Shown piece after piece: positions 856 through 56,539 of a stretch of DNA of 56,539 nucleotides. Location of the stretch: NCBI RefSeq assembly GCF_001879715.1, contig NZ_MNBW01000019.1:1-56539 (forward strand), written 5' to 3'. The stretch's first letter is position 1; each line of letters begins with the position of its first letter. The DNA is from Nioella nitratireducens. Its GTDB lineage: Bacteria; Pseudomonadota; Alphaproteobacteria; Rhodobacterales; Rhodobacteraceae. A model generated the notes under the pieces. That model saw nothing but the letters and a program-made list of their open reading frames with translations. It was not told the DNA's origin and did not search any database. The position numbers and the translations under genes were made by a program.

Positions 856-882
856 TCTATAAACACCACCGGGGGGCGTCAA
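856..882 (-). promoter_or_regulatory. Candidate promoter of tRNA-Lys
   Basis: On the minus strand TTGACG (882-877) and TATAGA (861-856) resemble sigma70 -35 and -10 boxes about 50 bases upstream of the tRNA. The spacer is 15 bases, shorter than the ideal 17. A GGCGCC hairpin (823-838) sits between promoter and tRNA in the leader. Inferred by eye. Confidence 0.45.
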
Positions 883-939
883 GGGAAAAACTGCCCTTTG
901 GGATTTCAAATCGACATCCGAAGGCGTATATCCCCGGCC

Positions 940-1779
940 ATGGCGGAAAACATGCTTCATACCGGCCTGCCCTTCATGAAAATGCACGGGCTTGGCAATG
1001 ACTTCGTGGTCCTCGACTCGCGGCAGACCCCCGTCGTGATGACGCCCGCATTGGCGACGGCGCTGGCGGATCGGCATCGCGGGGTGGGGTTCGACCAGCT
1101 CGCGGTGATCCATGACGACGCCGAGGCCGACCTGCGCCTCGTGTTCTACAATTCCGACGGCTCGCTCTCTGCGGCCTGTGGCAACGCAACCCGCTGTATC
1201 GCGCGCTACGAGATGGCGCGCACGGGCAAGGCGGCGCTGAGCCTGCGGACCGAGCGGGGGCTGCTTTCGGCGCTGGATACGGGCGATGGGCTGACCTCTG
1301 TCAACATGGGGCCACCACAGCTTGCGTGGGACGCCATTCCATTGGCGCGCGAGATGGACACGCTGAGGCTGCCGCTGGACGGCGCGCCCACCGCGACCGG
1401 CATGGGCAACCCGCATTGCACCTACTTCGTCGAGGATGCAGAGGCGGTGGACCTTGCGGCGCACGGGCCCGTCATTGAGCACGATCCGCTCTTTCCCCAG
1501 CGCACCAATGTGCAATTCGCCCATGTCATCGGCCCCGACCACCTGCGCATGAGGGTGTGGGAGCGGGGCACGGGGATCACCCTCGCCTCTGGCTCGTCCA
1601 GTTGTGCCACGGCGGTGGCGGCGGCGCGGCGGGGCCTGACCGGACGCACGGTGCGAATCGAGCTTGACGGCGGCACCATCCACATCGACTGGCGCGAGGA
1701 TGGCGTCTGGATGACCGGCCCCACCGCCCATGTCTTCGACGCCGTCCTGACGCCTGATTTCCTGGCGGGGCTGGCATGA
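940..1779 (+). CDS. dapF: Diaminopimelate epimerase DapF
   Basis: Converts LL-2,6-diaminopimelate to the meso form in the cytoplasm, for lysine and peptidoglycan synthesis. The N-terminus carries the family signature [13 protein letters not shown]. The two catalytic cysteines are visible in AACGNATRC and [11 protein letters not shown]; the second motif is a variant of the usual GSGSCA form. Length (279 residues) is normal. The frame is open further upstream, but the start at 940 was chosen because homologs have only a short leader before the signature; 952 and 976 are alternatives. The stop overlaps the mtaB start in an ATGA, so the two genes are co-translated. Confidence 0.93.
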
Positions 1780-3032
1780 CGACCCCGCCTGTGTTCCACA
1801 CGCTCGGCTGCCGCCTGAACGCCTATGAGACCGAGGCGATGAAGGCCCTGACCCAAGAGGCCGGGGTCGGCAATGCCGTGGTGGTCAACACCTGCGCGGT
1901 GACGGCCGAGGCGGTGCGCAAGGCCCGGCAAGAGATCCGCAAACTCCGCCGCGACAATCCCGGCGCGCGCATCATCGTCACGGGATGCGCGGCACAGACA
2001 GAACCCGAGACCTTCCGCGCGATGGACGAGGTGGATGTCGTCATGGGCAACACCGAAAAGATGCAACCCGAGACATGGGCGGGCCTTGCGGGCGATTTCA
2101 TCGGCGAGACCCAGAAACTCATGGTCGACGACATCATGAGCGTGACGGAAACCGCCGGCCACCTGATTGACGGTTTCGGCACGCGCAGCCGCGCCTACGT
2201 GCAGGTCCAGAACGGCTGCGACCACCGCTGCACTTTCTGCATCATCCCCTATGGTCGGGGCAATTCGCGTTCGGTCCCTGCTGGCGTCGTGGTGGACCAG
2301 ATCAAGCGGCTGGTGGATCGCGGCTATAACGAGGTGGTGCTGACCGGCGTCGACCTGACCTCTTGGGGCGCCGACCTTCCGTCAGAACCCAAGCTTGGCG
2401 ATCTGGTCATGCGCATCCTGAAACTGGTGCCCGACCTGCCGCGCCTGCGTATCTCCTCCATCGATTCGATCGAGGTGGATGACAACCTGATGCAGGCCAT
2501 CGCCACCGAGCCGCGCCTGATGCCGCACCTGCACCTGTCCTTGCAGGCGGGCGACAACATGATCCTCAAGCGCATGAAGCGCCGTCATTCCCGCGAAGAC
2601 GCCATTGCCTTTGCCGAGCAGGCCCGCCGCCTGCGCCCCGACATGACCTTTGGCGCCGATATCATCGCGGGTTTCCCGACCGAGACCGAGGCGATGTTCG
2701 CCAATTCGCTGGCGCTGGTCGAGGAGTGCGGGCTGACATGGCTGCATGTCTTCCCCTACTCGCCCCGCCCCGGCACCCCGGCGGCGCGGATGCCGCAGGT
2801 GAACGGCAAGGCGATCAAGGCGCGCGCGGCGCGTCTGCGCGCGGCGGGGGCGGCACAGGTTGCCCGCCATCTGGACGCGCAGGTGGGGCGGGCGCACAAG
2901 GTGCTGCTGGAAAATCCCCATATGGGCCGGACCGAGCAATTCACCGAAGTCACCTTCGCCGACCCGCAGCCCGAGGGCCAGATCGTCGACGTCGTCATCG
3001 CCGGGGTCGCGGGCACCCAACTTCACGCCTGA
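1776..3032 (+). CDS. mtaB: tRNA t6A37 methylthiotransferase MtaB
   Basis: Radical-SAM enzyme of the MiaB/MtaB family that adds a methylthio group to N6-threonylcarbamoyladenosine at position 37 of ANN-reading tRNAs. The N-terminal methylthiotransferase domain begins at [10 protein letters not shown] and has further cysteines in NTCAVTAEA and [10 protein letters not shown], ligands of the auxiliary 4Fe-4S cluster. The radical-SAM triad is CDHRCTFC near residue 150. A TRAM-like C-terminal part follows residue 350. It has 418 residues, as usual for MtaB and shorter than MiaB. It overlaps dapF by four bases. Confidence 0.92.
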
Positions 3033-3130
3033 GACCACCACCTCGCAGGATGGGCATCCTGCCCACCACCCGCGCGCCGGAGTGCGGTGGTCGGGTCGTC
3101 CCCCTGCCCTGAACAGCGCCCCGTTATACC

Positions 3131-3290
3131 GAGCTACCCCCCAAATTCGGACACTGACGTAGGCTATGATTTGCTGTCTGCTGGTCTTCGACGAGAAGGA
3201 GATCAGAGATGTCGAAGCGGAAGCAGCATTCGCCTGAGTTCAAGGTGAAGGTGGCGCTGGACGCGCTGAAGGGTGAGCAGACGGCGGCCC
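3131..3290 (+). mobile_element. IS3-family element fragment (left end plus truncated orfA)
   Basis: Bases 3131-3208 carry an IS end (GAGCTACCCCCC, then TTCGGACACTGAC) followed by the leader of a transposase orfA whose ATG is at 3209. The peptide starts MSKRKQHSPEFKVKVALD, the N-terminus of an IS3-type OrfA (helix-turn-helix). Homology stops after about 27 residues where an unrelated dehydrogenase fragment joins. A close relative of the same end lies at 56421-56539 in the same orientation. orfB and the right end are absent, so this copy is dead. Confidence 0.85.
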
Positions 3291-3303
3291 GGCGGCAGAG
3301 GGT

Positions 3304-3538
3304 GACCCCGATGCCTGGAACAAGATGCTGAACCTCAACATCAACGCCGCCTTCCGCTGCGTGAACGCGGTTCTGCCGCGCATGATCGAGCGCCAGACCG
3401 GCGACATCCTGTTCACCAGTTCCGTCGCGGGCGTGGTGCCCGTGGTGTGGGAACCCATCTACACCGCGTCGAAATTCGCGGTGCAGGCCTTCCTGCACAC
3501 GACCCGCCGGCAGGTGTCCGAACACGGCATCCGCATGC
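3304..3538 (+). pseudogene. Short-chain dehydrogenase fragment
   Basis: An in-frame stretch beginning [17 protein letters not shown] and containing [12 protein letters not shown] and [11 protein letters not shown] matches the middle of a classical short-chain dehydrogenase/reductase, including the catalytic Ser and the Tyr-x3-Lys pair. The NAD-binding N-terminus is missing because the IS fragment abuts it. The C-terminal part is lost after HGIRM, where the frame passes into unrelated sequence. This is a remnant, not a working gene. Confidence 0.8.
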
Positions 3539-3880
3539 CTTCGCTACGATCTCGGATGCAATGGCCGCGATGTCGTCGGCTGACGACATATGTGTTCCAC
3601 GAGCCGCCTTGGAACGATTTCACGCGCATAGATTTGAGCTCTACGCGCAAATGCAGGAGCTTGCGAGACGTCTGGCCAAAGGCGCATAGTCCCTCAACAC
3701 AGCCACGACCAAGGCGATCGCCGGGGGGTATGAAGACGGCTTTCTGGCGACAGAAGCCCTCGACAAGGCGACCTCGTAGCAGCGACAGTCACGGGTGGCG
3801 GGCCTGATAGGATCGGGCCTTCAAGGGGCCTTCTGTAAACGGGCAGGGCTTGCCCCATTGCTTGGCGGAAAGGGCCTCAC
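3539..3880 (+). other. Scrambled remnants before the transglutaminase gene
   Basis: 3539-3689 keeps an open frame ending RRLAKGA with a protein-like helical stretch ([20 protein letters not shown]), but its start belongs to the dehydrogenase frame. A further 30-codon open stretch follows to about 3778. I recognise neither. They look like 3' fragments of genes left after deletions around the IS element. The last 100 bases hold the ribosome-binding region (GGAAAGGG) of the next gene. Confidence 0.5.
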
Positions 3881-4657
3881 ATGCGGATCTCGATCGACGT
3901 CCAGATGCACTATCGCTTCTCCCGTCCCAACACGGTGTTTCTAGCGTTGGAGACGGCGCGGACCGACGGGCAGCAGGTCTTGGACTCCACGATGCAGCTT
4001 GGCGATGCGCGCGTTGATCGGATCATTGGGGATGACGCGATCGGTGAGCGGATCTGGGCGCGGGTGCCAGGGTTGGAGATGCGGTTGACCTATCGCGCCA
4101 TGCTCGACATCTCGCGGCCTGTCACGTCGCTTGACGGGCTGCGGGCCATGCCGCTGCACATGATCCCGGGCGCTGTCGCCCCCTACCTGCGCCCGTCGCG
4201 TTATTGCCAGTCCGACAAGTTCATGGCCTTTGTCGAAAAACGGTTCGGGCATCTGGTTGGCGGACAAAAAGTGGCGGCGATGCGCGATTGGGTTGAGGCG
4301 GAAATGTCCTATGTGCCGGGCAGTTCCCACGCCGATACCGATGTTCTGGATACATTTGCCGCCCGACAAGGAGTGTGCCGCGATTATGTGCACCTGTTCT
4401 GCGCGCTGGTTCGCGCAGCCCAGATCCCGGCGCGGGCGGTGGCGGCCTATGGTGCGGATGTCTGGCCGCAGGATTTTCATGCCGTGGCCGAGGTGTGGCT
4501 GGACAATGGCTGGCATCTGGTCGATCCCACGGGAATGTGCGCACAGGATGCGATCGCGGTGGTCGGGGTCGGGCGCGATGCCTATGACATCGCCTTCATG
4601 GATTCCGAGGCGCCGGCGGAAATGCTGTTTCAGCAGGTTCAGGTGTCGCGGGTCTGA
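3881..4657 (+). CDS. Transglutaminase-like cysteine protease family protein
   Basis: A 258-residue protein of the bacterial transglutaminase-like superfamily. The catalytic triad is visible: Cys in RQGVCRDYVHL (near residue 167), His in QDFHAVAEVWL (near 200) and Asp in HLVDPTGM (near 215). The N-terminal 100 residues match the beta-rich N-terminal domain that usually precedes this fold. There is no signal peptide, so it is probably cytoplasmic. Substrate is unknown; members act as proteases or amide-bond transferases. It stands alone between the degraded IS region and the convergent transporter operon, with GGAAAGGG upstream of the ATG. Confidence 0.82.
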   Translation: MRISIDVQMHYRFSRPNTVFLALETARTDGQQVLDSTMQLGDARVDRIIGDDAIGERIWARVPGLEMRLTYRAMLDISRPVTSLDGLRAMPLHMIPGAVAPYLRPSRYCQSDKFMAFVEKRFGHLVGGQKVAAMRDWVEAEMSYVPGSSHADTDVLDTFAARQGVCRDYVHLFCALVRAAQIPARAVAAYGADVWPQDFHAVAEVWLDNGWHLVDPTGMCAQDAIAVVGVGRDAYDIAFMDSEAPAEMLFQQVQVSRV

Positions 4658-4676
4658 TCGGCGAAGCCCATGCATG

Positions 4677-4702
4677 AAAACGGCCCGCGCAGGGGCGGGC
4701 CG
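4677..4702 (-). terminator. Terminator of the Liv-type transporter operon
   Basis: A perfect 8-base stem (CGGCCCGC at 4681-4688, GCGGGCCG at 4695-4702) with a 6-base loop. On the minus strand it is followed by TTTT (4680-4677). It lies 28 bases past the last gene of the minus-strand operon. Confidence 0.8.
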
Positions 4703-4729
4703 TCAGCGTTGAGCTATCTGGAAACGCCC

Positions 4730-50294: not shown

Positions 50295-51380
50295 TCAGGC
50301 TTTGCCGGAGCGCACTTGCGCGGCGAATGCCTCGATCTCCTCGGCCGCGTTGTCGAGGTTGGACGCAATGTCTCCAAACCGGTTTCGAAGGGCGTCGCAA
50401 GATGCCGCAGAGCTGTGCGGTGCGTCTGAAAACGCCTGAAGCGAGGCGGGATCGGTGATCTGCGGCAACCCCGTGAACTTGTCGGAATCGTTGGCGAACA
50501 CCGCTGCCGGTCGGCCTGCATACACCCCGTCCAAAAGGGCCGTGGAAGGGGTCGATACCATCAGGTCCGATACCGCCAGGATGTCGGTCATGGTCATGCC
50601 CCGCAGCGGGCCGCTGCCCTGATGGGAAAGCACCACATTCGGACAGGCGGCCAGACGGCGATCAAGCTCGGCCATCGGCGCGCGCTTCTTGCCCCGGTGG
50701 GATCGCAGGATGGTCAACACGTCGGGGTTGGCGCGGGCGAAGCCTTCGATCAAGTCATAGCAGGTGCGGATCTGCTCCTGCGAAAAGCGATCTTGCCACC
50801 GGAACGAATGGCAAAAGAGCAACCTCTGGCGATACGCCGCGACTGCTGGGGCCACGCCCGGCGGCAGGGGGCGCGGGTCAAGGACGGCGGGTTTCAGAAA
50901 ACCCACGGATGCCGCCTTGCCGATGGCCGGGCCGAAGACCGACGGGTCGGGCGGTTCATACAGCAGAACGAGGGCGGAGTCCCACGGCAGCGGCCCGCCG
51001 CTATCCGAATAGGTCCAGTCGCGTTGAATCACCCCATGCTGCACCGAGACACAGGGTTTGCCCGCCCGCGAAATCGCCGCGGTTCGTTTGCCATGGGCCG
51101 TTTCATCTGTGGCGGGATCAGAGAGGCCAAGCAATATGTCGAAGCGCTTGAGATACGGCCGGTAGAGATGCTTCAACCACCGGTTCGGCCGCACGACCGG
51201 CACCATCCCCGCACCGCGCAGAAGCGGCAGCGCCCGAGGTTCCTTGCGAGCAAGGGCCGTTGTCGCAAAGACGTTGACGTCAACCCGGCCCCGCGCCGCC
51301 AAGACCCGCAGCAGCGCAAAAAGCGCCTCGAAATCGGGCAACCCGTTCAGGAAGACACCGATCCGCGCCTTGCCGTTCAC
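50295..51380 (-). CDS. Glycosyltransferase-like protein linked to pseBC
   Basis: A 361-residue soluble protein. The C-terminal half (DVLTILRSHRGKKRAPM, then SDLMVSTPSTALLDGVYAGRPAAVFAND) looks like the nucleotide-binding half of a GT-B enzyme of the CDP-glycerol glycerophosphotransferase or capsule type. The first 30 residues (RIGVFLNGLPDFEALFALL) resemble the start of a Rossmann domain. It starts with GTG in a GTGA overlap with pseC. It lacks the PseG hydrolase signature. Transfer of a sugar in the same glycan pathway is inferred. Confidence 0.62.
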   Translation of the reverse strand: MNGKARIGVFLNGLPDFEALFALLRVLAARGRVDVNVFATTALARKEPRALPLLRGAGMVPVVRPNRWLKHLYRPYLKRFDILLGLSDPATDETAHGKRTAAISRAGKPCVSVQHGVIQRDWTYSDSGGPLPWDSALVLLYEPPDPSVFGPAIGKAASVGFLKPAVLDPRPLPPGVAPAVAAYRQRLLFCHSFRWQDRFSQEQIRTCYDLIEGFARANPDVLTILRSHRGKKRAPMAELDRRLAACPNVVLSHQGSGPLRGMTMTDILAVSDLMVSTPSTALLDGVYAGRPAAVFANDSDKFTGLPQITDPASLQAFSDAPHSSAASCDALRNRFGDIASNLDNAAEEIEAFAAQVRSGKA

Positions 51381-52540
51381 GCCAGCGCGTCTTTCAGTGC
51401 GGCAACCACCCGGTCCTGTTGTTCCTCGTCCAGTCCGAAGTAGAGCGGGATCGAGATTGCCCGGTCGTAATACCATTCCGACACCGGGAAATCGCCGGGT
51501 TTGAAGCCGAGCCGCCGGTAATCGGGCTGGGTATGCACCGGGATGTAATGCACGTTCGCGCCAATACCCGCCGCGCGCAGGGCATCGAAGACCGCGCGCC
51601 GCGTGTGGTTGGTTCGGTCGGTGTCGATCAGGATCGGGTAGAGATGCAGGGCAGAATAGCTGTCGGGGTTCTGCCACGGCAGGATCAGCGGCAGATCGGC
51701 CAGCAACGCATCATAGCGTTTCGCCATCTTCTGGCGATGCGCGACGAAATCGGCCAGCCGCCTGGCCTGGCTGACGCCAAGCGCCGCCTGCATTTCGGTC
51801 ATCCGGTAATTCAGGCCAAGCGCGACCTGATCGTATTCCCACGGTTCAGCGTTTTCGCTTTCCATCAGCGCCGGGTCGCGGGTGACCCCATGCGACCGGA
51901 AAAGGCCCATTTGCGCGGCAAGGTCGGCGTTCTGCGTTGTGGCGAGGCCACCTTCGGCTGTTGTGATGATCTTCACCGGATGGAAGCTGAAGACACAGAT
52001 GTCAGAGAAGGCACAGGCCCCGATGGGCTGGCCATCATAACTGCCGCCGATGCAGTGGCTGGCGTCTTCGATCACGCGGATGCCGTGTTTTTGCGCAATC
52101 GCACCGATGGCCTTCATATCCGCCGACTGGCCCGCGAAATGAACCGGGATCAGGATGTCGGGCTTGCGGTCCGCCGTGGCAAGCTTGGCCTCCAGCGCGA
52201 CGGGGTCCATGCAGTAATCGCTGGCGCGGATATCGACAAAATCCACATCTGCCCCGCAGAGCCGCCCGACATTGGCCGACGCCACGAAGGTATTGGGGAC
52301 GGTCCACAGCAGGCCACCGGGTTTCAGCCCAAGCGCGAGGCAGGCAATATGCAGTGCCGAGGTGGCAGAGTTCACCGCCACCGCATGGGCCGCGCCGGTG
52401 GCACCTGCAATCGCGGCCTCGAATTCCGGCACCTTGGGCCCCTGCGTCAGGAAATCCGAGCGCAGCACCTCTACCACGGCGGCGATGTCGTCTTCCGAGA
52501 TGTCCTGCCGACCGTAGGGGATGAAGCCCGTATCCGCCAT
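51377..52540 (-). CDS. pseC: UDP-4-keto-sugar aminotransferase PseC
   Basis: PLP-dependent DegT/DnrJ/EryC1 aminotransferase of 387 residues, making UDP-4-amino-4,6-dideoxy-N-acetyl-altrosamine. It starts FIPYGRQDISEDDIAAVVEV as in PseC; the PLP lysine is in FSFHPVKIITTAEGG and the Asp that holds the pyridine nitrogen is in VIEDASHCIGG. The GLNYRMTEMQAALG motif is conserved. ATGA overlap with pseB upstream. Confidence 0.92.
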   Translation of the reverse strand: MADTGFIPYGRQDISEDDIAAVVEVLRSDFLTQGPKVPEFEAAIAGATGAAHAVAVNSATSALHIACLALGLKPGGLLWTVPNTFVASANVGRLCGADVDFVDIRASDYCMDPVALEAKLATADRKPDILIPVHFAGQSADMKAIGAIAQKHGIRVIEDASHCIGGSYDGQPIGACAFSDICVFSFHPVKIITTAEGGLATTQNADLAAQMGLFRSHGVTRDPALMESENAEPWEYDQVALGLNYRMTEMQAALGVSQARRLADFVAHRQKMAKRYDALLADLPLILPWQNPDSYSALHLYPILIDTDRTNHTRRAVFDALRAAGIGANVHYIPVHTQPDYRRLGFKPGDFPVSEWYYDRAISIPLYFGLDEEQQDRVVAALKDALA

Positions 52541-53550
52541 CAGAAGTGCCCGATGGTTTCCGCGTTGGCCTGAATCCAGGCGCGCAACGTGTCGATATCC
52601 ATCCAGTCGGCATTGTTGTCCGACGTGTAGGCGAAACCGTCTGACACTTTCCGACCATCCTTGATCCGGACCGCATCCCTGGACCAGTTGTGAATCGCGG
52701 GCAGGATCTTGAAGTGCTCGTCATACTCGTAGGTATGCGGCGCGTCCTCTTCGCCGATCATCTGCTCGTGCAGTTTTTCACCGGGGCGGATGCCGACCAC
52801 CTCATGCTCGAAGCCGGGCAGGCAGGCCTCGGCGATGTCGAGGATGTTCATCGACGGGATCTTCTTGACGTAGATTTCGCCGCCAACCATGTCGTTGAAA
52901 GCGTGCCAGACCAGTTCCACGCCTTGCGGCAGGGTGATCATGAAGCGGGTCATGCGGGTGTCGGTGATCGGCAGTTTGGCACCGTCGCCCATGGATTTGA
53001 AGAACGGGATGACCGAGCCGCGCGACCCCATGACATTGCCGTAGCGCACCACCGAGAAGCGGCAGCCATCGCCACCGGCATAGGAATTGCCCGCAACGAA
53101 CAGCTTGTCCGAGGCCAGCTTGGTCGCGCCATACAGGTTGATCGGAGACGAGGCCTTGTCCGTCGAAAGCGCCACGCATTTCTTGACGCCCTTGTCGATG
53201 CAGGCGTCGATCAGGTTCATCGCGCCGTTGACGTTGGTCTTGACGCATTCGAACGGGTTGTATTCCGCGGTCGGCACGATCTTGGTCGCCGCTGCGTGAA
53301 CGACATAATCGACCCCGTCGAGCGCGCGATACAGGCGGTCCCGGTCGCGCACATCGCCGATGAAGAACCGCACGCGGGGGTCGTTGCCGAATTTCTTGGC
53401 CATATCCCACTGTTTCATCTCATCGCGGGAATAAATGATCAGCCGGGCGGGATCGTATTTTTCCAGCGTCATGGGCACGAAGTGGGACCCGAAGGACCCG
53501 GTGCCGCCGGTCAGCAGGATGGAGGCGTTTTTTTCCATGATATCGCTCAT
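52540..53550 (-). CDS. pseB: UDP-GlcNAc 4,6-dehydratase (inverting) PseB
   Basis: First enzyme of pseudaminic acid synthesis; NADP-dependent, 336 residues. Rossmann motif LLTGGTGSFGSHFV, then RDEMKQWDM and the catalytic stretch STDKASSPINLYGATKLASD (quoted: STDKASSPINLYGATK) identify FlaA1/PseB. The frame extends upstream into the tRNA-Pro region; the ATG at 53550 was chosen since the family begins there. It heads the operon pseB-pseC-glycosyltransferase. Confidence 0.93.
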   Translation of the reverse strand: MSDIMEKNASILLTGGTGSFGSHFVPMTLEKYDPARLIIYSRDEMKQWDMAKKFGNDPRVRFFIGDVRDRDRLYRALDGVDYVVHAAATKIVPTAEYNPFECVKTNVNGAMNLIDACIDKGVKKCVALSTDKASSPINLYGATKLASDKLFVAGNSYAGGDGCRFSVVRYGNVMGSRGSVIPFFKSMGDGAKLPITDTRMTRFMITLPQGVELVWHAFNDMVGGEIYVKKIPSMNILDIAEACLPGFEHEVVGIRPGEKLHEQMIGEEDAPHTYEYDEHFKILPAIHNWSRDAVRIKDGRKVSDGFAYTSDNNADWMDIDTLRAWIQANAETIGHF

Positions 53551-53616
53551 CTTGTCGGTTGCGAGCCTTCTCGCAGGGATTGCAGGCGGGATCAAGTTGA
53601 GCGGCGCATTTCCCGC

Positions 53617-53645
53617 TTGCAAAGGCATGATTCCCCCGCTATCCC
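53617..53645 (+). promoter_or_regulatory. Candidate promoter of tRNA-Pro
   Basis: TTGCAA (53617-53622) and TATCCC (53640-53645) with a 17-base spacer end 12 bases before the tRNA. The match is fair. It lies in the 107-base divergent spacer upstream of pseB. Confidence 0.45.
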
Positions 53646-53657
53646 GCCCGGCACGGT

Positions 53658-53734
53658 CGGAGTGTAGCTCAGCCTGGTAGAGCACTGTCTTCGGGAGGCA
53701 GGGGTCGGAGGTTCGAATCCTCTCACTCCGACCA
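53658..53734 (+). tRNA. tRNA-Pro (anticodon CGG)
   Basis: A 77-base cloverleaf with CCA encoded. Acceptor stem CGGAGTG/CACTCCG is perfect; the anticodon stem CTGTC/GGCAG encloses loop TTCGGGA, anticodon CGG; the T-arm has GGTTCGAATCC. It reads CCG proline codons. The AT-richer island starts right after its 3' end, so it is the likely attachment site. Confidence 0.97.
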
Positions 53735-54088
53735 ATAAAATCAAAGATTTAGATGAGAATACATGCCGCCAATTGGGTGTATTGTCTCGATTTTGTCTCA
53801 GCCATAGAAGTGCAACCATGCCCGGGATCGAAGTAGGCTTAGCATAGGTAGCCTACTAGAACCGCACCGAGGCGCGGTGCATTGCTTAAGCAAACGAGTA
53901 CTTCACCGATGTCCGCCAAGTCCCGCAGATTGCTCGCACCACGAGGAATCTTGTGCAGGATGAGCCCTGTAGTACCGGCACTCTGCTTTGATGACCTGAG
54001 CGCCCTCCAGAGGACGGGTCGCCCTTGCTAGATATGCTGTATTGCAGGCGACCATGTCGACCTTGCTGGCAACGGCGCTTCACACTGC
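53735..54088. other. Gene-free spacer between tRNA-Pro and the defence module
   Basis: No gene is supported. Two neighbouring hairpins are present: GTAGGCT/AGCCTAC (53833-53839 with 53850-53856) and GCACCG/CGGTGC (53864-53869 with 53875-53880). A minus-strand open stretch at 53886-54083 has no recognisable domain and may be a fragment. The first 90 bases after the tRNA carry two copies of TGTCTC. Confidence 0.4.
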
Positions 54089-54112
54089 TGATTTTTCGGG
54101 TAAAATCATCAT
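54079..54112 (+). promoter_or_regulatory. Promoter with overlapping operator for the AAA/HNH module
   Basis: TTCACA (54079-54084), a 16-base spacer, then TAAAAT (54101-54106) make a sigma70-like promoter. An inverted repeat TGATTTT-N6-AAAATCA (54089-54108) covers the -10 box. With the -10 ending at 54106 the expected transcript start is at the A of the ATG (54113), and there is no ribosome site, so a leaderless mRNA is predicted. Confidence 0.5.
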
Positions 54113-55414
54113 ATGGAAACTCACTTCAAATCACTATCGATCGAGTCGTGGCGACAGTATCGCAATGTCGATATTCAATTCCATCCTCGCTTGACGGTCA
54201 TTACTGGCCCGAACGGAACGGGAAAGAGCACTATCCTAAGTCTACTGAATCGCCACTTTGGCTATGGCCGAAACTATCTTTCTACCCCTAAGAAGAACAA
54301 GAAGACCGGGATAATGCAATTCAGTACCGGCGCGTATGATTGGCTGATGAATAAATTGGCCCGCCCGGAAAGCAGCAATGAGGTAGCAGTAGGTAAGATC
54401 CACTATAGCTCTGGGGAAGTCGGAGAAATCCGAGTCCCAAGCCAGAATGCGATCCAGTACGGAATAAATGTCACCCCACAACCCGCAGTTCAGGGTGTCC
54501 ACATAGATTCTCACCGCCCGCCTTCCGTGTACAAGCAAGTCCCTCACATCCCAACATCGGCAATTAATAAATCCAATATTGCACAATCTCTCAACAAAGA
54601 ACTACGCCAATTCTACCAGAGTGGAAGCTCCCGTGAAGGGACACTCTTTCATATTAAATCTGCGTTGATTGCGATGAGTTTGTTCGGCCACGGCAACGAA
54701 ACAATGGAGGCGGATTACGAACTAATTGATTTATTTAAAGGGTTCGAGGAGAAGCTCAGGATAATCTTACCGAAATCGCTTGGCTTTGAGCGATTAATCA
54801 TTCGAATGCCTGAGGTGTTGCTCTCAACAAGATCGGGTGATTTTGTGGTCGACGCAGCCTCTGGCGGCGTCATAAAGCTCTTTGAGATCACGTGGCAAAT
54901 CTACTTCTTTTCGCAACAAAAAAAGCATTTTGTGGTGACGATGGATGAACCTGAGAACCATCTTCACCCTTCTATGCAGCGAACCTTCCTTCGAAATCTC
55001 ATGGACGCTTTCCCGAAGAGTCAGTTCATAGTCGTCACGCACAGTCCCTTTATTGTTTCGTCTGTTAAGGACTCGTCGGTGTACGTCCTGAACTACGTCG
55101 ATGTCGAAGGCATCACTGAGCCGGGTTTCGATGAAGATCAGTCCGTTCGCGGCCTCATGGGCGCGAGAGTGGACAGTCAAAAGCTCGACACTGTTAATCG
55201 TGCTGGCACTGCTGCACAGATCCTTAGAGAGGCGCTCGGGGTGTCCACTACGATTCCACAGTGGGCGGACGAGCGAACTAAAGAGATCATCGAAGGCTAT
55301 AAAAATCAGCCAATCACTAGTGAAGCATTGGATCGACTGACTGCTCAGCTCGAGAGTGAGGGTTTGGTCAGTGAGATTCCAGCTGCAATCAAAGAGCTAA
55401 CCCAAAAGAAATGA
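54113..55414 (+). CDS. AAA/ABC-type ATPase, Septu PtuA-like
   Basis: A 433-residue P-loop ATPase of the OLD/Septu group. Walker A is TGPNGTGKSTILSLL near residue 30; the ABC-like signature region is AASGGVIKLFEI near 250; Walker B with catalytic Glu is FVVTMDEPENHLHP and the switch His is in VVTHSPFIVSS. There is no TOPRIM domain at the C-terminus, unlike OLD nucleases. The next gene codes an HNH nuclease, the PtuA-PtuB pairing known from Septu. AT-richer than the chromosome, so recently acquired. No ribosome site; see the promoter entry. Confidence 0.85.
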   Translation: METHFKSLSIESWRQYRNVDIQFHPRLTVITGPNGTGKSTILSLLNRHFGYGRNYLSTPKKNKKTGIMQFSTGAYDWLMNKLARPESSNEVAVGKIHYSSGEVGEIRVPSQNAIQYGINVTPQPAVQGVHIDSHRPPSVYKQVPHIPTSAINKSNIAQSLNKELRQFYQSGSSREGTLFHIKSALIAMSLFGHGNETMEADYELIDLFKGFEEKLRIILPKSLGFERLIIRMPEVLLSTRSGDFVVDAASGGVIKLFEITWQIYFFSQQKKHFVVTMDEPENHLHPSMQRTFLRNLMDAFPKSQFIVVTHSPFIVSSVKDSSVYVLNYVDVEGITEPGFDEDQSVRGLMGARVDSQKLDTVNRAGTAAQILREALGVSTTIPQWADERTKEIIEGYKNQPITSEALDRLTAQLESEGLVSEIPAAIKELTQKK

Positions 55415-56091
55415 TTGCACTCACCAAACTAGCATCCCCAAGAATCTTAACTCAGAATGCGGCTGCCTGGCGAGCTGAGCTTCTCGCGACGATCGCTGCT
55501 GGCGAAGAGCCGACCAAGGCTCAAAAAAATAGATACAATCATGTCGACATTAAGGCGCAGCTGGTTGAGGAGACACACGGTAAGTGCTCATATTGTGAGA
55601 GCAAAATGCGTCATGTGGATGATGGCGACATAGAGCACATATTGCCAAAGGCTAAGCATCCTGATCTCAGCTTCGATTGGGAAAATTTAACTCTTGCTTG
55701 CACAATCTGTAATAGAAAGAAAGGAGACCACGACGCTCCTCCTGGAGATGCGCAGAGCCTTGTTAATCCATATCAGGATGACCCGAAGGCTCATTTTCTA
55801 TTTCATAGAGAGATTCTCACGCCAACTCCGGAGAGTGTTCGCGGAAGCAATACTGAGAATATACTTGAGCTAAATAGGGCTGACCTGAGAGAGCGAAGGC
55901 GCGAGAAAATCGATGAGCTGCACCAGTATGTGACTGCCTACGCTCAGGCCGAAGACGATTATAAACCACTTGTCTCTCGTCAAATCCGCAAGCAATGCGT
56001 CGGCGCTGACAAGGAATACTCTGCGTTCTTGGAGCAATATATCTCAGAGATGATCACAAGGGGAACGTTACCAGAAGATGTACTAAGTTAA
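55411..56091 (+). CDS. HNH endonuclease, Septu PtuB-like
   Basis: A 226-residue protein with a retron/Septu-type HNH domain: zinc-binding CSYCESKM, catalytic DIEHILPKAKHPDL and a second zinc pair in LACTICNRKKGDH (residues 65-115). The C-terminal 100 residues are helical and charged and may bind the ATPase. The start overlaps the ATPase stop by four bases, so both are made together. In Septu the ATPase gates the nuclease, which cleaves nucleic acid upon infection. No reverse transcriptase is near, so this is not a retron. Confidence 0.85.
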   Translation: MIALTKLASPRILTQNAAAWRAELLATIAAGEEPTKAQKNRYNHVDIKAQLVEETHGKCSYCESKMRHVDDGDIEHILPKAKHPDLSFDWENLTLACTICNRKKGDHDAPPGDAQSLVNPYQDDPKAHFLFHREILTPTPESVRGSNTENILELNRADLRERRREKIDELHQYVTAYAQAEDDYKPLVSRQIRKQCVGADKEYSAFLEQYISEMITRGTLPEDVLS

Positions 56092-56420
56092 ATAGCTGGT
56101 TTTTGTTGATATTGAGATCTCTGTCTGTTTCAAGTCGTTCGATGGCTCTGCCCCCGCGTTCAAGGCGTTATAACTATCTCGATATAGCCGAAGTATCTTT
56201 TCAAGACTTCCTACCCCCGCGGGGACACCGGGCAAATCTGTATCTGTGTATCGCTCTGGGTCACATTCCAAGACACTTGAGGCAGATTCATGCTCTTCAA
56301 GCCAATTATACGGCTGTAGATCAACATATTTTCCGGCTACCGCGCGGTTCGAGAAGGCGTTTTCGACGATCTCACGTTTTTCCGGTGGATCTGCGATTTC
56401 ATAAAGCGAACAATGAGCTA
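56083..56420 (-). pseudogene. 3' fragment of a recombinase-like gene cut by an IS
   Basis: On the minus strand about 110 codons read as a natural protein: IADPPEKREIVENAFSNRAV, KYVDLQPYNWLEE and a charged tail. The pattern (EKREI...FSNR...G...DLQP..WL) resembles the C-terminal end of serine site-specific recombinases. The upstream part is missing because an IS3-family end starts at about 56421. The 3' end overlaps the HNH gene by 9 bases. Family call is tentative. Confidence 0.55.
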
Positions 56421-56539
56421 CCCCCCGAATTTCGGACACTGACATAAGCTACGAATTGCAGTTTGCTGATCTTCGACGAGAAGGAGATCAGAGATGTCGA
56501 AACGCAAGCAGCACGCGCCCGAGTTCAAGGCGAAGGTCG
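56421..56539 (+). mobile_element. IS3-family element, left end and start of orfA (runs off window)
   Basis: The IS end (TGAGCTACCCCCCGAATTTC) and leader are close to the copy at 3131. The orfA ATG is at 56494 and the peptide starts MSKRKQHAPEFKAKV. The window ends before the transposase is complete, so whether this copy is intact cannot be seen. It has split the recombinase-like gene. Confidence 0.88.

Follow-up and report, generated by a model that had tools for sequence, protein, structure and literature searches.

Septu systems of type I have been described as the gene pair ptuA–ptuB, and those of type II as the same pair preceded by a reverse transcriptase (RT) gene, PtuC (PMC8565338). 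For one Escherichia coli system, Septu EcB88, the Walker A lysine and Walker B aspartate of the ATPase and the histidine and asparagine of the HNH motif are reported to be required for defence (PMC13096335). Accounts of the activity differ between the published relatives, which are reported to cut either host tRNA-Tyr or DNA: the PtuAB proteins of retron-Eco7 are reported to deplete tRNA-Tyr and those of retron-Eco4 likely to spare tRNA, while the table of a review gives the degradation of phage genomes as the action of Septu and 6:2 as the PtuA–PtuB stoichiometry, and the review describes the PtuAB proteins of the Ec83 retron as degrading ssDNA after their release (PMC12948488).

The pair described here lies near one end of a contig of Nioella nitratireducens that was analysed over its whole length of 56,539 nucleotides (the window; Table 1), and it is very probably a Septu type I anti-phage system, in which a PtuA ATPase acts together with a PtuB HNH nuclease that would cut nucleic acid on infection. 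The first-pass annotation had noted two open reading frames overlapping by four bases downstream of a tRNA; its coordinates for the frames proved correct, the overlap reads ATGA, and the tRNA ends upstream of ptuA. The promoter-like site in front of ptuA has 10 of 12 consensus matches, but three such sites were found compared with a mean of 2.8 in shuffled sequences. The motifs from which a P-loop ATPase and an HNH protein with two Cys pairs had been recognized could all be located. PtuA carries a Walker A motif, GPNGTGKST, at residues 32–40, SGG at residues 250–252, a Walker B motif, MDEPE, with Asp278 and the catalytic Glu279, and a switch histidine, His310; PtuB carries Cys59/Cys62, His76, Asn92, Cys97/Cys100 and Asn101. 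The catalytic residues of both predicted proteins are thus intact, and the residues required for defence by Septu EcB88 are found here as Lys38 and Asp278 of PtuA and His76 and Asn92 of PtuB.

Table 1. Features of the ptuAB locus, in positions of the window.
Feature	Position	Strand	Remarks
tRNA-Pro(CGG)	53658..53734	+	Left border of acquired stretch; also recovered by Rfam search
Promoter-like site	54079..54106	+	Directly upstream of ptuA; weak evidence
ptuA, 433-aa P-loop ATPase	54113..55414	+	PADLOC PtuA1 match; Pfam AAA_15/AAA_21
ptuB, 226-aa HNH endonuclease	55411..56091	+	PADLOC PtuB1 match; Pfam HNH
120-aa ORF without family match	56083..56445	-	Extends into repeat start
End of IS-like multi-copy repeat	56414..56539	+	Contig stops inside repeat

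When both proteins were searched against profiles of the Septu, retron and OLD/Gabija families, the PADLOC Septu profiles gave the best matches, and over nearly the full length of each protein, in line with the Septu identity first proposed. PtuA matched PDLC00290 (PtuA1) with an E-value of 2.2e-156 (residues 4–432, profile positions 2–411 of 414) and PtuB matched PDLC00337 (PtuB1) with 1.8e-70 (residues 1–213, profile positions 1–210 of 216), values that rule out a chance match; the Pfam HNH match of PtuB had an E-value of 3.1e-9. Sequence searches of solved structures placed both proteins closest to the PtuA and PtuB of retrons and of Septu. With family profiles, the matches extended to the Septu chains of E. 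coli, 8ee4 (1.3e-22) and 8ee7 (7.1e-10), and to retron PtuA and PtuB; where PtuA itself is compared directly with its structurally solved relatives, the similarity lies mainly in the two ATPase motif regions. The AlphaFold2 model of PtuB (pLDDT 87.2) gave 40 Foldseek matches, five of them with E <= 0.001 (TM-score by query 0.60–0.63), and these five are PtuB-type chains from Septu or retron I-A, including 8eea from E. coli Septu. The predicted model of PtuA is weak (mean pLDDT 61.4), so that its Foldseek matches count as support rather than as proof: there were 395 with E <= 0.001, and the best 50 all belong to Septu or retron I-A chains (TM-score by query 0.41–0.53). The middle of the protein (about residues 52–200), which could not be aligned by sequence to solved PtuA, is, because the model is weak, not anchored to known structures.

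Because homologues of PtuA and PtuB serve as effectors of the retrons Ec78/Eco7 and Ec83, which share with this locus the homologous ATPase, the HNH protein and a CxxC pair before the HNH motif, the pair might also represent only the effectors of a retron (Septu type II/retron I-A), its RT and msr-msd RNA being either lost or encoded at another site. The NCBIfam models for retron PtuA (97 bits against a cut-off of 500) and retron PtuB (68.7 against 150, residues 37–207) do match, although below cut-off, as did TIGR02646 (49 against 52.15). However, no frame of RT size fits between the tRNA and ptuA (378 bases, 53735–54112), an Rfam search at E-values up to 1 recovered only the tRNA in 53600–56539, and neither an RT gene nor an msr-msd RNA adjoins ptuAB in the readable sequence, that is, before the repeat at 56414, whereas retron I-A has both an RT and a retron RNA. 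Nor was an RT listed within 7 kb in three plasmid records of relatives, whose gene tables are incomplete, or noticed by eye among the open reading frames of the other relative loci. The PtuA protein is about 110–120 residues shorter than the retron PtuA chains of 542–552 residues. We consider the retron reading very unlikely, and the pair fits Septu type I, which it resembles in its near full-length matches to PDLC00290 and PDLC00337, in the order ptuA–ptuB and in having no RT gene adjoining.

TOPRIM domains are a feature of OLD, GajA and Eco8-type effectors. The ATPase described here shares a related motif region with Gabija GajA and OLD (PADLOC GajA, 6.6e-19, residues 268–321), but it gave no TOPRIM match among 18 Pfam families at E <= 0.1, the PtuA profile extends over its C-terminus, and its partner is an HNH protein rather than the GajB helicase; an OLD/Gabija assignment, resting on weaker matches confined to the motif region, was rejected.

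Strong relatives of this PtuA are, as judged from sequence matches, rare in the genome samples. At 1e-3, it has matches in 69 of the 295 genomes sampled from the family, but strong ones only in its own genome and one other (G011); the remaining 67 are at motif level (best E-value 1.7e-11). The class sample yielded two matching genomes out of 385 at 1e-20, and the PADLOC PtuA profile at 1e-40 matched three of 398 genomes in the phylum sample and one of 390 in the order sample, the genome itself being included in each of these counts. A scan of named genomes with PtuA gave five loci and the plasmid collection three records. Twelve relative loci were compared (L031–L035, G011, G566, L053–L055, L059 and L061), with about 35–49% identity to the compared relatives. 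All twelve were located by way of PtuA, and in each a relative of PtuB lies 3' of it; six (L031, L032, L034, L035, L055 and L059) have the same four-base overlap. In a search from the other side, PtuB at 1e-10 matched 11 plasmid records. In eight of them the listed genes include an ATPase gene in contact with the match; a ninth has one just before it, and the other two list none. The ptuA gene is interrupted in two of the twelve loci, by an in-frame stop in L031 and a change of frame in G566, and L034, L035, L055 and G011 are truncated where a contig or record stops; with these six left out, Lys38, Gly251, Gly252, Asp278, Glu279 and His310 are invariant in all seven rows of the PtuA alignment. 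Likewise, Cys59, Cys62, His76, Asn92, Cys97, Cys100 and Asn101 are invariant in all 12 rows of the PtuB alignment, which combines the N. nitratireducens protein with those of all twelve relatives except L054.

The gene neighbours vary between the relative loci, and inspection by eye or of the record annotation revealed no extra gene common to them. On a Vibrio tubiashii plasmid (L053, 2913–13311), an integrase gene lies on one flank, and the other carries an annotated restriction endonuclease, a protein kinase and a PP2C phosphatase, possibly a defence cluster. At L061 (genome G972, 189–833), an open reading frame of 214 residues overlaps the end of ptuB, and none like it was noticed elsewhere by eye. 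A PtuB match on a Deinococcus plasmid, inspected as a possible PtuB–PtuA fusion, proved not to be one, since the ATPase there has a gene of its own that overlaps the beginning of the match. We also considered a phage-borne origin, which was not retained: the ATPase search of the phage collection at 1e-10 gave no match, although the PHROGs matches point the other way. PtuA matches phrog_9802, of function not known, at 1.4e-40 (residues 1–361) and PtuB matches phrog_16016, HNH endonucleases, at 1.8e-27 (residues 1–186), indicating that relatives are present in viral or prophage genomes.

The E. coli Septu proteins (8ee4, 8ee7, 8eea, 8sux; EcB88) resemble the present pair in both components, in the ATPase motifs and in the predicted PtuB fold, and the histidine and asparagine reported as needed for defence by Septu EcB88, His75 and Asn91 (PMC13096335), have the same 16-residue spacing as His76 and Asn92 here. 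There are also differences. PtuA is shorter, with 433 residues compared with 465 in the 8ee4 chain, and its Walker A lysine is separated from the Walker B aspartate by 240 residues, compared with 273 (Lys43–Asp316) in Septu EcB88. PtuB has two CxxC pairs, whereas in 8ee7 the second cysteine of the first pair aligns with a serine, and the second pair falls outside the 8ee7 alignment.

The first-pass annotation had raised the possibility of a distinct subtype, on the grounds that the ATPase lacks a TOPRIM domain and that the tail of the nuclease was unrecognized. Neither ground carries the claim: the PtuB1 match (residues 1–213) includes the tail, and the absence of TOPRIM, in itself borne out by Pfam, does not mark a subtype, since PtuA in general has, to our knowledge, no such domain. 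Moreover, the PADLOC profiles already defined for Septu cover almost the whole of both proteins. The Septu type I reading would nevertheless include, as a special case, a distinct branch that differs in trigger and substrate and is marked by the compact PtuA. Such a branch would accord with the PADLOC scores of PtuA (519 bits for the best model, 282 for a shorter PtuA1 model and at most 109 for the others listed), with the rarity of strong matches in the phylum sample and with the middle region that cannot be aligned to solved PtuA. It is set against a protein that is still captured by the named profile PtuA1 and has a partner of the PtuB1 kind, against neighbourhoods in which no additional common gene was seen by eye or in the annotation, and against the fact that divergence of comparable size is usual among defence genes. 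We consider it improbable, and give the same low weight to the more specific proposal that the PDLC00290 clade is a compact, rare branch whose divergent middle holds another infection sensor, or picks another target, than in the E. coli systems. Unless experiment shows otherwise, we read the compact PtuA and its unalignable middle as ordinary divergence. On the comparisons made here, the pair belongs to a known kind of defence system and is ordinary within it, with no feature found that sets it apart from Septu type I.

The proposal that the pair was acquired next to the tRNA, in DNA richer in AT than its surroundings, is supported by three lines of sequence evidence: base composition, a break in synteny and the lack of a strong match in four congeners. 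The GC content of the pair is 0.481, compared with 0.584–0.672 in 259 windows of the same length from positions 1–53734. The stretch from PseB to tRNA-Pro has a strong match in four of the five congeneric genomes searched (G186, G1166, G1200 and G1267; 85–87% identity, with tRNA-Pro(CGG) present in each), the fifth, G1304, which is 81% complete, giving only tRNA-like matches. Homology with the four stops at 53743–53752, 9–18 bases beyond the tRNA, and the sequence 3' of tRNA-Pro varies among them within the reach of their contigs. A PtuA search at 1e-40 found nothing in these four genomes, G186 having one motif-level match of 57 residues (3.9e-5). The foreign GC and the lack of a strong match in the four congeners bear, too, on the reading of the pair as an unrelated ATPase and HNH protein with a non-defence role, for which it can be said that HNH and AAA domains are widespread; as the best matches by profile and fold are, in addition, Septu and retron proteins, we regard that reading as scarcely credible, and retain Septu type I.

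To the left of the tRNA, on the minus strand (51377–53685), lie PseC and PseB genes of the pseudaminic acid route, both above the NCBIfam cut-offs, and the stretch from 52.2–52.5 kb to the tRNA is conserved in the four congeners. In G186 (L075, 191–2538), tRNA-Pro is followed, as read by eye, by a HipA/HipB-like pair and a tyrosine recombinase, a content that suggests use of the tRNA-Pro site by different mobile DNA.

On the right, the acquired stretch can be read only as far as the repeat, inside which the contig ends. Its last 126 bases also start contigs C78, C41, C39, C12 and C9 at 100% identity, and a 134-base stretch of the repeat ends contig C2 at 99%, so that the IS proposed at this position is supported as a multi-copy repeat; since the five contigs share the same repeat end, they would be other copies rather than the continuation. 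The recombinase fragment also proposed here, presumably the 120-aa open reading frame, was not borne out: searches of PADLOC, Pfam, NCBIfam and PHROGs, at the limits applied, and of the plasmid collection at 1e-3 returned no match to the frame. Only 322 bases are readable between ptuB and the repeat, and further genes of the system may therefore lie beyond it. When the assembly was searched for a duplicate of the tRNA 3' end that might mark an att site, only weak matches appeared, the next best lying in the tRNA-Lys at 713–756 (80% over 44 bases), and the search thus gave no evidence of a duplicated att site. The stretch 3' of tRNA-Pro in G1166 is found mostly on contig C84 in N. nitratireducens (80% identity), next to genes that look housekeeping-like by eye; the region thus has another arrangement here, and does not allow the island's far end to be placed.

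Of the five contigs with the repeat at their start, C41, C12 and C9 carry defence-type genes near that end. C41 (5.7 kb), which begins with the repeat end found at the end of the ptuAB contig, encodes a full-length PD-Lambda-4_A protein at 874–4722 (L079; PADLOC PDLC03991, 1868 bits), and defence-type methyltransferase genes of the type III and HmaB/DUF1156-like kinds lie near the repeat on C12 (L081, 96–1217) and C9 (L082, 682–2895).

By analogy with the E. coli homologues, PtuA and PtuB would probably be made from one coupled transcript, and the ABC/SMC-like ATPase would assemble with PtuB into a complex that stays inactive as long as the cell is healthy. Upon phage infection, the ATPase part would license the HNH nuclease to cut nucleic acid, halting phage replication and probably slowing the growth of the host. 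We hold the pair to be a nuclease-based anti-phage module on the analysis given here; tRNA-Tyr and DNA appear about equally likely as its substrate and cannot be told apart from the sequence.

The locus provides a clean annotation of a putatively acquired defence module at a tRNA-Pro border behind which the congeners differ. By itself it leaves the picture of Septu unchanged, but it adds one Septu sequence from outside the enterobacterial systems with reported activity, and may be of use in asking whether the cutting of tRNA or of DNA is the common activity of PtuAB.
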